In this document: positions 1 through 3,012 of the stretch, one piece after another
Position numbering within the stretch: position 1 is the first letter of the stretch
Layout: each line of letters opens with the position of its first letter
The notes under the pieces: generated by a model
What the model was told of the DNA's origin: nothing
Databases searched by the model: none
The model's input: the letters and a program-made list of their open reading frames with translations, nothing else
Translations under genes and position numbers: made by a program
IMG/VR virus record: IMGVR_UViG_3300028027_000213
Location: 1-25,863 of that record
Length of the DNA: 25,863 bases
From: a virus
Reading direction: 5' to 3' (one strand)

Positions 1-310
1 TTTTTTTTGTATTAAAAACATTTTTAGATTGGTCTGCAGCCCTTAAGTTATTCATCAAATTATTTGATTTGTTGCAATCTATGTGGTCTACAACTTTAGG
101 CAAAAAACCATAATGCATTAAAAAAATTATTCTATGAGTGCAATATGTTTTTCCATTTATGCGAGTTTTGTGGTAACCGTGGCTGTTTAGCCCTCCAGCT
201 AATTTCTTTTTTATTCCTGGTTTAGAAATTTTCCAAAATAAATTACCCTCTTTGTATTCAAAGAGTTCGTGTAAATTTATTTCTAATAATGTAAAATCTT
301 TAGCAGCCAT
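1..310 (-). CDS. HNH homing-type endonuclease, 3' end cut by window edge
   Basis: A leftward frame opens at ATG 310-308 and stays open to the window edge (103 codons visible, no stop). The protein starts MAAKDFTLLEINLHELF, has GNLFWK at about residues 22-27, then an HNH core: HRIIFLMHYGFLPK, DHIDCN and NNLMNNLR at about 60-95. The same order and wording occur in the second HNH gene at 2518-3012, so they are paralogues. Family members are free-standing phage endonucleases, often with a C-terminal AP2 DNA-binding domain; that part would lie outside the window. An SD-like AGAGG lies about 9 nt before the ATG. The gene has its own leader (see 311-385) and is separated from the operon upstream, as expected of a mobile insertion. 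Role as a selfish homing nuclease is inferred from the family. Confidence 0.85.
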   Translation of the reverse strand, partial: MAAKDFTLLEINLHELFEYKEGNLFWKISKPGIKKKLAGGLNSHGYHKTRINGKTYCTHRIIFLMHYGFLPKVVDHIDCNKSNNLMNNLRAADQSKNVFNTKK

Positions 311-385
311 AGCAATACCTCTATATTGTGGTGGTTAGAAGCCCCATTGGTTTGTCAGAACCTTTGGGGTTTTGTTTATTTTAAC
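311..385 (-). promoter_or_regulatory. Leader of the partial HNH gene: -10-like box, hairpin, CTAACCA motif
   Basis: Reading leftward there is a TAAAAT box (383-378), then a hairpin with CCCC/GGGG outer arms and an inner GG/CC (369-342), then CTAACCACCAC starting exactly 28 nt before the ATG, then an SD-like AGAGG. The second HNH gene has the same order of elements with the same 28-nt spacing. No clear -35 is visible. On the other strand the hairpin is followed by a T-rich run (370-382), so it could alternatively act as a rightward terminator; no gene reading into it from the left is visible. Confidence 0.5.
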
Positions 386-425
386 AGCAAACAAGAAAAC
401 TTTAAAGACCACAACTCATCAAAAC

Positions 426-665
426 TCATAAAAGTCCCCACTTAGTAAGTTCACCGGTTACAAATAATACTATGCCTGCAAAGTAAAAAGCAACAGCTAC
501 GATCTCTACTGTAAACAAGGCCATATCGTCTTGAGCGTACCCAGCCGCAGCCCATAAGCCAGATCCTATAAATCCTATAAGGATGTTAGCTGGGTAGATG
601 TTTAGCGCAGTCAGCAATATGCCTAGCAAGCAAAGGGTAGTGCCAGTCCACTTTAGTGTTTGCAT
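426..665 (-). CDS. Small three-helix membrane protein
   Basis: 79 aa, start ATG 665-663 directly abutting the TAA of the 38-aa gene upstream (TAA then ATG with no gap), so translation is probably coupled. Three hydrophobic segments are visible: about residues 5-22, 27-43 and 51-70, with the charged pair DD between the last two and a short polar tail ending in GELTKWGLL. It is the last gene of the leftward operon that starts at 1558. Small phage membrane proteins in early operons often act in superinfection exclusion or membrane remodelling, but nothing here proves a function and I do not recognise the family with certainty. Confidence 0.75.
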   Translation of the reverse strand: MQTLKWTGTTLCLLGILLTALNIYPANILIGFIGSGLWAAAGYAQDDMALFTVEIVAVAFYFAGIVLFVTGELTKWGLL

Positions 666-782
666 TTAGTTTCTGTAATATATGTTTTGTGGGTTTTTTA
701 CCATGCTTGCAATCAGCAAGTCTATGCTAGAAAACCATTGGATAAACATCTGACCGCCAGGCTCGTATATGGTAAAGCTCAT
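666..782 (-). CDS. 38-aa protein of the left operon
   Basis: A short frame from ATG 782-780 to TAA 668-666, encoding MSFTIYEPGGQMFIQWFSS and a tail ending YYRN. It is below common size cut-offs but well supported by packing: its ATG overlaps the TGA of the 75-aa gene (ATGA) and its TAA abuts the ATG of the 79-aa membrane protein gene. It fills exactly the only space left in the operon. The middle (IQWFSSIDLLIASMV) is hydrophobic enough for membrane or amphipathic association. No known family recognised. Confidence 0.65.
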   Translation of the reverse strand: MSFTIYEPGGQMFIQWFSSIDLLIASMVKNPQNIYYRN

Positions 783-1006
783 TTCTTTACCTTTTTAGGT
801 TTTAATGTTTCTCTATGCAACTCCATAAGCGCATCGGCTTGCTTAGCAACCTTGTCCTCAATATGCTCGATCATATCCTTAATGGCCCATAATGCACCGC
901 TATACGGACTATCTACATCTTCTGCTACCAGCTCAACCATATCTCGCACATTAGCCAGTTTGTATGATAGTTCCTCTATGTCGTTTGCTGCTTGCCATAA
1001 ACTCAT
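779..1006 (-). CDS. Hypothetical helical protein, 75 aa
   Basis: Begins MSLWQAANDIEELSYKL at ATG 1006-1004, which overlaps the previous stop as TAATG, with a GGGAG ribosome site just upstream. The protein is acidic and predicted to be almost wholly helical by its heptad-like spacing of I, L, V and M (NVRDMVELVAEDV, IKDMIEHIEDKV), ending in a lysine cluster LKPKKVKK. Its TGA overlaps the ATG of the 38-aa gene. Third gene of the operon from the 1566-1595 promoter. A coiled-coil or protein-binding role is possible; no family is recognised. Confidence 0.75.
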   Translation of the reverse strand: MSLWQAANDIEELSYKLANVRDMVELVAEDVDSPYSGALWAIKDMIEHIEDKVAKQADALMELHRETLKPKKVKK

Positions 1007-1221
1007 TAGTGACTCCCATAATTTGTGTACACAGTAAGGCTATCTAGCCGCATCTGCATATCACGGATTTTTAACTCTTGCGCTCTTAGCATCTCTGCTG
1101 CTTCTACTAACGCATAAATAGCATTACTAAACTGCAATGCGCTTTCTAACTCATCCGCTAATTCCATAGCGGTTTTGCCGATCTCTACTTCCCCAGCAAA
1201 CGGAATAAACTCAATTGGCAC
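1006..1221 (-). CDS. Hypothetical helical protein, 71 aa (GTG start)
   Basis: Starts at GTG 1221-1219. A full AGGAGG Shine-Dalgarno sequence lies about 5 nt upstream inside the end of the preceding gene, which makes this start convincing although it overlaps that gene by 11 bp. The protein begins MPIEFIPFAGEVEIGK and continues with helical repeats rich in Ala, Glu and Leu (AMELADELESAL, LVEAAEMLRAQEL). Its TAA overlaps the next ATG. Second gene of the left operon. Family and function unknown. Confidence 0.75.
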   Translation of the reverse strand: MPIEFIPFAGEVEIGKTAMELADELESALQFSNAIYALVEAAEMLRAQELKIRDMQMRLDSLTVYTNYGSH

Positions 1222-1558
1222 TTGCTCCTCCTAATGCTTTTATGGCCTTCATACTTAACAATATTTTGTCTAAGTCGTTTTCAGAACGAATACCGATTAA
1301 CTTTAATTTGTCTGATGTATAGCAAGATCCGTCATCCCGATATAGGCTGCCAGTAACGCTGTCCATCATTAGTGTTTTATTTTTTGGGTCTGTAAGAATT
1401 TGAACTGGGGTAAGTATGATCTCGCCCTCATTCAGAATACCTCTAAGCAATGTGCGGTCTTGAAGCCATTTTTTTCGCAGCTCTTTGTTTCCCCAGGAAG
1501 GGTAGCAGAATGTGGCTTGAGCGCATAAGCCGTCTGTAGATGCTCGTATTTTTTTCAT
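1211..1558 (-). CDS. First gene of the left operon, 115 aa, unknown function
   Basis: Starts at ATG 1558-1556 and ends at 1211. It begins MKKIRASTDGLCAQATFCYP, with two Cys near the N terminus and one at about residue 80 (GSCYTSDKL). The centre resembles a small beta-rich domain (GEIILTPVQIL, TLMMDSVTGSLYRDDG). There is no ribosome site in the AT-rich sequence before the ATG, and the proposed -10 box ends 7 bp before the start codon, so the mRNA is predicted to be leaderless or nearly so. It is the promoter-proximal gene of five leftward genes. No family recognised; a host-takeover or regulatory role fits the position but is inference. Confidence 0.75.
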   Translation of the reverse strand: MKKIRASTDGLCAQATFCYPSWGNKELRKKWLQDRTLLRGILNEGEIILTPVQILTDPKNKTLMMDSVTGSLYRDDGSCYTSDKLKLIGIRSENDLDKILLSMKAIKALGGASAN

Positions 1559-1565
1559 AAATTAA

Positions 1566-1595
1566 ATACTAATCTACAAATCTACATTTGTGCAA
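1566..1595 (-). promoter_or_regulatory. Leftward early promoter with TCTACA operator half-sites
   Basis: On the minus strand TTGCAC (1595-1590) is followed after 18 bp by TAGTAT (1571-1566). The rightward promoter at 3283-3312 has TTGCAA, the same 18-bp spacing and the same TAGTAT, and the two share the 15-bp stretch TTTGTAGATTAGTAT. Two TCTACA half-sites on the plus strand (1573-1578 and 1581-1586) lie in the spacer, the second extending to TCTACATTTGTGCA, a 12/14 match to the palindrome at 3292-3305. Start of transcription would fall at about 1559-1560, at the start codon of the 115-aa gene. Confidence 0.6.
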
Positions 1596-1637
1596 GCGTT
1601 ATTTTTGTATAGACAATGTATATACATTTCGCATAGC

Positions 1638-1834
1638 AATGTCACATTTTTGCAAATTAAAAAGTTTCCTGATCGGGAAAAATGTAAGAAAAAGTTGCGT
1701 AAATTACACAAAAGTTACTGATCGGGGCATTTTGTAAAAAAAGGTTTGACGGTCAATAAATCTGCGTATTCCAGAGCTTTTACCAGAATAATGTCAATAA
1801 TTGTGTTTGAAAGGTAAAAAATGTCACTTATTCT
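1638..1834. repeat. AT-rich block of short repeats and palindromes (origin or control candidate)
   Basis: Part of the gene-free 1559-2116 stretch. Visible elements: a near-palindrome TTTCCTGATCGGGAAA at 1665-1680; a repeat of CTGATCGGG at 1669-1677 and 1718-1726, each preceded by AAAGTT; a third AAAGTT at 1691-1696; the palindrome GTAAATTAC at 1699-1707; the palindrome TTGACGGTCAA at 1746-1756; and AATGTCA three times near 1639, 1790 and 1820. The block is clearly more AT-rich than its surroundings and no convincing ORF crosses it. Such clusters occur at phage replication origins and at multi-operator regions; which applies is unknown. Confidence 0.45.
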
Positions 1835-1879
1835 GCACATTAACTGCGTTTTTGTATTTAATGAGATACATAACTAACA

Positions 1880-2100
1880 AAGTCTTTAATAAGACTTAGT
1901 AGTATAAAGGTTACTGCTTTCTGGTGAACGAACCTAGCCTACCTAGATTCGCCTTCATCTGCTTACTGGAGCCACAGAACCCGTCAGTCGTTCAAGGAAT
2001 AGGCACTAACTTCGCCACCTATATTGCGCTGTTTCATCCTTTACCCCCAGTAGCGCTGTATCCCTATGTCGCTGGTATGTCGTTAGAGCCTCCAACATAG
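1880..2100. other. GC-richer non-coding block, possible structured RNA
   Basis: About 50% G+C from 1921 to 2100 against about one third in 1621-1680. It starts with a perfect 7-bp hairpin AAGTCTT/AAGACTT (1880-1886 and 1891-1897, loop TAAT), followed by a TAGTAT box (1900-1905). Within it are the inverted repeat TGAACGA/TCGTTCA (1925-1931 and 1988-1994) and GCGCTGT twice. Only weak short frames exist: 58 codons from GTG 1924 (plus) and 30 codons from ATG 2098 (minus), neither with a good ribosome site or known family. It does not look like tRNA, tmRNA or rRNA to me. Orientation of any transcript is unknown. Confidence 0.3.
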
Positions 2101-2116
2101 GAATTGGTATCTTACA

Positions 2117-2428
2117 TCAGAACTCAAACTCTTTGCAAGCGTATCTTCCATTAGGCTGCTTAAAAAACCCAATCACAATAATTCGCCAGCCTGCGTTTAA
2201 AAGATAAGGTAGAGCTTCGCTTTCTTGAATTTTTCTTATTCGTGATGACATATTACTTTTGCTTGTAATTTGTATACCTATAGTTTCTTTGTTGCCGACA
2301 GCAAGCACATCAAAAATTGTAAAAAGGTCTTTTTTGCGCCTGGTGAAGCTATTGTAGGATTCCACCGTGTCGCACAAGTAGCCACGATCTTTAAAAATAG
2401 CTATTGTTCTTTGATTAAGAGATGTCAT
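2117..2428 (-). CDS. PD-(D/E)XK-like nuclease-fold protein, 103 aa
   Basis: Starts ATG 2428-2426. The core FTIFDVLAVGNKETIGIQITS at residues 36-56 has the beta-hairpin pattern of restriction-endonuclease-like folds (VRR-NUC, Hjc and Mrr types): a conserved Asp (D40), then after a short loop a strand with G-I-Q-I-T-S where many active enzymes carry E-x-K or Q-x-K. A downstream helix (IRKIQESEALPYLLNAGW) and strand (RIIVIGFFK) complete the fold. The second acidic and lysine positions are not standard (Q53, T55), so it may bind DNA with modified catalysis or none. It is transcribed away from the HNH gene, and no ribosome site is obvious. Family placement is by eye. Confidence 0.6.
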   Translation of the reverse strand: MTSLNQRTIAIFKDRGYLCDTVESYNSFTRRKKDLFTIFDVLAVGNKETIGIQITSKSNMSSRIRKIQESEALPYLLNAGWRIIVIGFFKQPNGRYACKEFEF

Positions 2429-2517
2429 TTTTGTTTAAAAGTGGTTTATAATTAACGAGCCAGCTAAGAATTGCAGTTCTAAACTGGCTCTAACCATCAT
2501 TGGATAAGGATACAACA
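2429..2517 (+). promoter_or_regulatory. Leader of the second HNH gene: TATAAT, hairpin, CTAACCA motif
   Basis: Reading rightward: TATAAT at 2447-2452, then a hairpin with perfect GAGCCAG/CTGGCTC arms (2458-2464 and 2484-2490) and an inner AGAA/TTCT pairing, then CTAACCATCAT beginning 28 nt before ATG 2518, then AAGGA at 2506-2510. No T-run follows the hairpin, so it is not a classical terminator. The -35 region is poor. Order and spacing match the leader at 311-385. The same interval must hold the start signals of the divergent gene at 2428; a TATAAA-like box overlaps the TATAAT on the other strand. Confidence 0.5.
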
Positions 2518-3012
2518 ATGGCTACTTTTGATTCTACATTATTGCTTGAGCAATTAAAACAATCGTTTTATTACAAAAACGGCAATCTCTATTGGAAAAA
2601 TTCATGCAAGGGCACAAAGCAAAATGCCTTAGCTGGGTGGGAAGGAGATCGCTGTAGAACTATTGAATTTAAACAAAAAAATTACAAAGCACATAGGTTA
2701 ATTTTCCTACTTCATCATGGATATTTGCCAAAATATATAGACCATATAGACGGAAATCCACGAAACAACAACATAGAAAATTTAAGAGAAGCAACCCATC
2801 AACAAAATTTATGCAATACAAAATTAAGAAAAGACAACACCTCTGGTTACAAAGGCGTGTCTTTTAAAAAAGAGCTAAATAAATGGCTGGCTCAATCTAC
2901 GCTTTATGGAAAAAATCATTATTTAGGCATTTTTGTGCATAAAGAAGATGCTATAAACGCAGCAAAGGCCTTTAGGGAAGCTAACCACAAGGACTTTGTT
3001 AGGCACTTTTAA
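2518..3012 (+). CDS. HNH endonuclease with AP2-type DNA-binding domain
   Basis: 164 aa from ATG 2518, chosen because AAGGA lies 7 nt upstream and because the protein then starts MATFDSTLLLEQL, aligning with its paralogue at 1-310; an in-frame TTG at 2500 has no such support. The HNH core is HRLIFLLHHGYLPK, DHIDGNPRNN and NLREATHQQN at about residues 62-100. The C-terminal half contains SGYKGVSF, KWLAQ, HYLGIF and EDAINAAKAF, the three strands and helix of an AP2-like domain. Free-standing homing endonuclease, inferred to cut DNA of phages lacking the insertion. It is an isolated rightward gene and its stop overlaps the convergent repressor gene by 4 bp. Confidence 0.9.
   Translation: MATFDSTLLLEQLKQSFYYKNGNLYWKNSCKGTKQNALAGWEGDRCRTIEFKQKNYKAHRLIFLLHHGYLPKYIDHIDGNPRNNNIENLREATHQQNLCNTKLRKDNTSGYKGVSFKKELNKWLAQSTLYGKNHYLGIFVHKEDAINAAKAFREANHKDFVRHF

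Follow-up and report, generated by a model that had tools for sequence, protein, structure and literature searches.

The stretch of DNA considered here (the window) is the whole of a 25,863-base virus record, IMG/VR IMGVR_UViG_3300028027_000213, which holds two HNH endonuclease genes, HNH1 and HNH2, on opposite strands. Each is preceded by a leader of the same design (Table 1). The AP2 match of HNH2 is under the Pfam cut-off, and HNH1 is cut at the contig end, which places any AP2 domain of HNH1 outside view. A preliminary description of the window listed before both genes a -10 box (TAAAAT or TATAAT), a hairpin, CTAACCAYCAY, a stretch resembling a Shine-Dalgarno (SD) sequence and ATGGCT, with ATG starting 28 nucleotides (nt) after the C that opens CTAACCA, and the record bears this out. 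CTAACCAYCAY has only these two sites in the record, and a reversed control pattern has none. The description did not include a second hairpin (P2), which has the SD in its loop, or the opposite strand. When folded in the sense orientation, the HNH2 leader is clearly separated from shuffled sequences (z-score -3.3); the HNH1 leader has a z-score of -1.0.

Table 1. Positions of genes, leader elements and predicted antisense features at the two HNH loci of the window (ORF, open reading frame)
Feature	Position	Strand	Remarks
HNH1 gene (HNH_3)	2..310	minus	truncated by contig end; ATG at 310-308
HNH1 sense promoter, -35-like TTTAAA	401..406	minus	consensus match only; inserted unit starts about here
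HNH1 sense promoter, extended -10 TG.TAAAAT	378..383	minus	promoter-like match 9/12
HNH1 leader hairpin P1, CCCC/GGGG arms	338..373	minus	plus-strand reading is the predicted antisense RNA 3' hairpin with U-rich tail
HNH1 motif CTAACCACCA	329..338	minus	pattern scan of record
HNH1 hairpin P2, CAATA-TAGAGG-TATTG	313..328	minus	SD in loop
Predicted antisense promoter -10 TAAAAT, HNH1	292..297	plus	opposite codons 5-7, ORF nt 14-19
Predicted antisense RNA of HNH1	305..380	plus	ends approximate; fold z-score (see text); 3' tail TTTTGTTTATTTTAA
HNH2 gene (HNH_3, weak AP2)	2518..3012	plus	ATG at 2518-2520
HNH2 sense promoter -10 TATAAT	2447..2452	plus	
HNH2 leader hairpin P1, GAGCCAG/CTGGCTC arms	2457..2490	plus	
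HNH2 motif CTAACCATCA	2490..2499	plus	pattern scan of record
HNH2 P2 region	2500..2515	plus	SD (TAAGGA) in loop; stem TTG..CAA, weaker than in HNH1
Predicted antisense promoter -10 TAGAAT, HNH2	2531..2536	minus	opposite ORF nt 14-19; symR hexamer and position
Predicted antisense RNA of HNH2	2456..2523	minus	fold z-score (see text); weak U tract in tail
Inserted unit: promoter, leader and HNH2	2418..3009	plus	missing from close relatives; right edge is the HNH2 stop codon

The two leaders are not the product of a recent duplication, to judge from the HNH proteins, which are 45% identical, and from the arms of P1, which differ. Chance, or a recent duplication of one leader in this phage, would suit a record with just two copies, but the differing proteins and arms, the 73 distinct leaders found elsewhere and independent matches in genomes and plasmids leave this reading a negligible probability.

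Leaders of this type recur widely. Relatives of HNH2 were gathered by protein similarity alone, and the leader was found at 34-68 bits in L003, L005, L007, L008, L010, L015, L019, L028 and L030, with the remaining relatives scoring below 12 bits. Pattern scans added dozens more loci. The pattern CTAACCAYCA-N18-ATGGC yields many chance matches (more than half in one scan, and genome-contig matches also look like chance), and therefore only matches supported by a model or by structure were used. The 28-nt spacing was built into one pattern scan; a spacing of 26-30 nt recurs in loci found by protein similarity and in those of a second pattern scan, neither of which had that constraint. In a common register, the leaders have, in order, a -10 box, a stretch of approximately 3 nt whose last base is C, and P1 (33-38 nt); CTAACCAYCA follows, then P2, whose loop contains the SD, and ATG. 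The end of the sense -10 box is mostly 37-39 nt ahead of the first C of the motif (C1). A covariance model (R1) built from 37 leaders, with symE and IncQ repA left out, matches dozens of environmental phages, Escherichia coli prophages, plasmids and gammaproteobacterial genomes. The total of 73 distinct leaders does not include those of the window.

The leader is not confined to HNH genes. Nuclease targets include HNH_3 proteins with or without AP2, NUMOD4-HNH, HNH/HNH_5, Endonuclease VII and a weak GIY-YIG match, and the same leader precedes genes for Bro-N, Cpn10 (GroES), Phage_ASH (Icd-like), SymE and several unknown small proteins. R1 finds it before genes of E. coli prophages annotated as 'host cell division inhibitor Icd-like', and a 351-bp Icd-like leader region is matched in 1,267 of 5,426 complete E. 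coli genomes. In E. coli Nissle (NZ_CP022686.1), a leader is at L392 3094-3172 ahead of an Icd-like gene, and no antisense RNA is annotated there. The annotated environmental phage record MW202520 has a leader before a small Cys protein, and the target of L399, a gammaproteobacterial genome leader, is SymE-like by eye. Genome leaders L493-L503, L394, L403 and L406 are found before short unknown proteins, all with a predicted antisense -10 box; new toxins or accessory genes under antisense control may be among them.

In phages PS-1 and ENT1 the HNH genes are without the leader, and a BLAST search of the leader consensus against named phages returned chance pieces only. Some HNH relatives that do not have a SymR-like leader show the Rfam int-alpA RNA (RF02996) just upstream (L020 2873-2941 and L505 1400-1466), and the HNH relatives L011, L012 and L021 resemble these cases. 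These nucleases seem to be accompanied by several RNA elements.

The preliminary description proposed that structure is kept while sequence changes, and expected covarying arms and a conserved CTAACCA block upstream of other members. Both are found, and they are not confined to the two copies in the window. The P1 and P2 arms range from AT-rich to GC-rich with pairing kept: there are 203 two-sided changes in a sense alignment (A2) compared with 74 after shuffling, and all slid registers are worse. A2 was hand-picked partly on P1, and therefore the P1 covariation is biased upward, with P2 much less affected; one row (L214) was entered with ATG, and its gene starts with GTG. In an antisense alignment, 83.7% of cells are paired, covariation is 0.46 versus 0.28 or less in slid controls, and two-sided cells number 181 compared with 68 shuffled. 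In some rows of alignment A3, MAFFT places the distal part of P1 one column off, which lowers the counts of A3. RNAalifold recovers the antisense stems unaided.

The antisense strand folds better than the sense strand in all 73 leaders, and the antisense RNAs predicted for the window fold at z-scores of -5.8 (HNH1) and -6.0 (HNH2). In the antisense 5' stem, the complement of ATGGCT is paired to that of CTAACCAY. Of the six stem pairs, two are mostly G-U in the antisense strand, where each is paired in 76 of 78 leaders; in the sense strand the same two are C-A mismatches, paired in 3 of 78 and 10 of 78. Because G-U pairs of one strand are C-A mismatches in the other, the functional strand is fixed as the antisense, and the functional RNA of the leader is probably that strand. 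Motif position 8 (Y) can be C or T since U can face G or A. Leaders with CTAATCA (symE, L015 and L503) have ACT instead of GCT as codon 2, a substitution that, on this pairing scheme, compensates across the start codon.

An element that acts only in the sense strand would have P1 as a stabilizing or regulatory hairpin at the mRNA 5' end and CUAACCAYCA as a protein or ribosome site, with the other strand silent. One version would be a hairpin of the T4 I-TevI/mobE type that hides the ribosome site; the preliminary description cited such T4 hairpins and noted that the hairpin in the window is further upstream. The promoter box just upstream would indeed place P1 at the 5' end, both hairpins pair in sense too, and homing genes of T4 have regulatory RNA structure where the ribosome binds (PMC3014915). 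However, in T4 I-TevI and Aeh1 mobE a single sense hairpin buries the SD and there is no antisense RNA (PMC3014915), whereas here the SD is in the P2 loop and is not sequestered, and the conserved bases are explained by pairing in the antisense strand. With the polarity set by the G-U/C-A asymmetry, and with the antisense -10 box and the T at nt 6 within the ORFs (below) left unexplained, a sense-only leader is very unlikely. The T4-type hairpins do resemble the proposed module in restraining a homing endonuclease at the RNA level.

It is highly improbable that the element works as DNA, either as an operator bound by the HNH protein or as a recombination or attC-like hairpin site. Inverted repeats do adjoin a mobile nuclease gene and the unit moves in one piece, but this view does not accommodate arms that are unrelated in sequence yet still pair, the G-U asymmetry between the strands, the fixed geometry from SD to ATG, or leaders on genes that do not encode nucleases. 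A CsrA target, a tRNA-like or RNase P substrate and an attC site were also considered, and were set aside once antisense pairing accounted for the motif.

Unrelated genes have a TATAAT-like hexamer on the opposite strand, at ORF nt 13-14. This putative antisense -10 box is at ORF nt 13/14 in 31 of 42 leaders, compared with one of 55 leaderless pattern matches and none of 19 leaderless HNH relatives; the single exception, L164, is itself a leader by R1. All 18 loci outside the training set have it at ORF nt 13-15. ORF nt 6, the SymR start position, is T in 41 of 42 leaders versus 16 of 55 leaderless matches, and GCT encodes Ala-2 in 68 of 69. When pattern matches were chosen by the antisense -10 box alone, P1 and the SD were present in 31 of 31.

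These properties closely parallel those of SymR, the antisense RNA of the symE type I toxin-antitoxin locus (RF01809; Kawano et al., 2007, PMC1891008). The leader order and the antisense -10 box at ORF nt 14-19 are as in the HNH leaders, and SymR is a two-hairpin RNA of about 77 nt with its 5' end at nt 6, similar to the predicted HNH antisense RNAs. In symE, CTAATCA paired with ATGACT is the counterpart of CTAACCA/ATGGCT. Thus the window shares with SymR the leader geometry (P1, CTAAYCA, SD hairpin, ATG), the antisense -10 position and the antisense 5' stem. The target differs: SymE has an AbrB fold and is under LexA control, whereas the targets in the window are phage HNH_3 proteins. The LexA box CTGN10CAG was found in one of 78 leaders (symE only), and symE-like LexA control was rejected with the box missing from all other leaders examined.

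The R1162/RSF1010 (IncQ) RNA over repA (RF00043) is a second parallel. It has the order CUAACCACCA, SD, AUGGCU, as in the window leaders, and its antisense -10-like TAGGCT at nt 14 shares their antisense promoter position; it differs in having a plasmid replication operon as target and a longer P2. In an antisense alignment, HNH1, HNH2, SymR and the R1162 RNA have AGYCAU in common at the 5' end, and UGRUUAG precedes the second hairpin in all four. R1 matches the symE leader of E. coli K-12, which lies opposite the annotated symR (3.7e-8 in 5 kb), and the IncQ repA leader (1.3e-11). An Rfam scan of the window gave no symR match and nothing usable for the leader, and a wholly new RNA was the first idea; it was dropped after sub-threshold SymR matches were found on the opposite strand. 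These are exactly over leaders L148, L225, L248 and L259, and also on the antisense strand of the L394, L399, L499 and L503 leaders. PtaRNA1 (RF01811) and AS-pc01 (RF02875) have sub-threshold antisense-strand matches over genome leaders L497 and L494, with weak scores only. A C4/P4 immunity RNA was considered for the Icd-like targets in E. coli and discarded, as C4 and isrK sit separately, downstream.

Antisense control of symE and of R1162 is known, and conserved nucleotides have been noted ahead of other symE genes (PMC1891008). A literature search that was thin on subscription journals found no paper linking SymR, R1162 and PtaRNA1, and none placing such antisense RNAs on homing endonucleases; Rfam has no common clan for the three. 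What may be new here is the proposed placement of a SymR/R1162-like antisense module on phage homing endonucleases.

The best explanation, with a probability of roughly 0.83, is that the HNH genes carry a two-way antisense control module of the SymR/R1162 type that would repress endonuclease translation. The sequences themselves provide the architecture, covariation, strand polarity, antisense -10 position, recurrence on unrelated genes and empty insertion sites; from these we infer that the antisense RNA is made, where it ends, that it represses and that all members are of common descent. In the proposed mechanism, the sense promoter would drive a short mRNA leader with P1, CUAACCAYCA, the SD in P2 and AUGGCU. 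A promoter on the opposite strand, in ORF codons 5-7, would start an antisense RNA of about 70-77 nt near ORF nt 6. Its 5' stem-loop would have AGCCAU paired with RUGGUU and an anti-SD in the loop, and its 3' hairpin would be P1 read backwards. Being fully complementary to the 5' untranslated region (UTR) and the SD, this RNA should block translation: it would cover the SD and start codon and keep endonuclease low, as SymR does with SymE. Mutation of the symR -10 box abolishes SymR and raises symE protein more than sevenfold (PMC1891008).

Several points weigh against this explanation. Antisense transcription in this phage and in the environmental members is something we infer. The antisense -35 boxes are weak, GC-rich members have no clear U tract after the reversed P1, and the HNH2 tail is weak. 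Rfam scores are under the gathering thresholds: the best relative for symR (L394) scores 51.4 bits with a threshold of 61, and the R1162 RNA on HNH2 scores 22.4 bits with a threshold of 55. Many of the leaders are related, and therefore the counts are not independent and p-values overstate the case; recurrence on unrelated gene families is stronger evidence than the p-values.

The antisense RNA might instead activate translation, or its promoter might mainly serve a neighbouring gene, such as the gene at 2428-2117 that HNH2 has cut from its operon. There is a precedent for activation in Asr9, which opens the leader of the ISPpu9 transposase and, like the RNAs proposed here, lies antisense to the 5' UTR of a nuclease from a mobile element, although the element is different (PMC8450116). 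The HNH2 antisense tail with its weak U tract points into the disrupted operon, and the RNA may read through this tail. However, a loop already holds the SD, SymR, the closest characterized case, represses (PMC1891008), and the predicted HNH1 antisense RNA, with a U-rich tail at its end, is directed at no co-oriented gene. Both proposals are thus unlikely.

The preliminary description regarded the leader and gene as a mobile unit with its own regulation, and related phages agree with this. The HNH2 unit of about 590 bp interrupts the junction of two minus-strand genes, and L413, L414, L416, L421 and L422 are without promoter, leader and HNH2 together; such empty sites in close relatives are a mark of free-standing homing endonucleases. 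The start of the HNH1 unit is its own promoter, and the gene (MSFDELW...) that it breaks runs on in L413, L414 and L416. Promoter, leader and nuclease were inserted as one unit, and it follows that the regulation travels with the nuclease. In moving, these phage homing endonucleases thus probably take an antisense silencer of their own with them, and a phage acquiring the unit would gain nuclease and silencer together. As a speculation, a first burst of endonuclease in a naive cell, ahead of antisense RNA build-up, would favour homing in co-infection. T4 obtains a similar outcome through hairpins at ribosome-binding sites (PMC3014915).

The PeSL cassettes of RB49-type phages are also units of promoter and stem-loop tied to exchange of accessory phage genes. 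They consist of a terminator and promoter of similar sequence, whereas the leaders described here have unrelated arms and a predicted antisense promoter in the ORF.

At the insertion sites, the gene truncated after MSFDELW by the HNH1 unit is at window positions 385-430 (minus strand), and the gene downstream of the HNH2 insertion is at 2117-2428 (minus strand). The predicted HNH2 antisense promoter points into the latter, and read-through from it might keep that gene expressed. Between the two HNH units is an Rfam Betaproteobacteria-1 RNA (RF02932; 1979-2102, minus strand; 97 bits, E 3e-18), which is also present in related phage loci L051 and L078 and suggests betaproteobacterial hosts.

Chances are about even that SymR, the R1162 RNA, PtaRNA1, AS-pc01 and the phage leaders share one ancestral bidirectional cassette that swaps target genes. 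Such a cassette would be about 110 bp in length and extend into codon 7 of the target. It would spread as a ready-made silencer of genes that are costly when over-expressed, i.e. homing endonucleases, toxins, cell-division inhibitors and replication genes.

If this is true, SymR, known as a chromosomal enterobacterial antitoxin, and the R1162 RNA, known from plasmid copy-number control, would be forms of one portable cassette. The rule for its recognition would be CTAACCAY upstream, ATGGCT, and TANNNT on the opposite strand at ORF nt 13-15, and with it many antisense RNAs that lack annotation would be exposed together with their targets, among them Icd-like genes in about one-quarter of complete E. 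coli genomes. A regulatory RNA would then constrain the first codons of unrelated proteins. For the phages, it would suggest how free-standing homing endonucleases restrain their expression wherever they are inserted in the genome.

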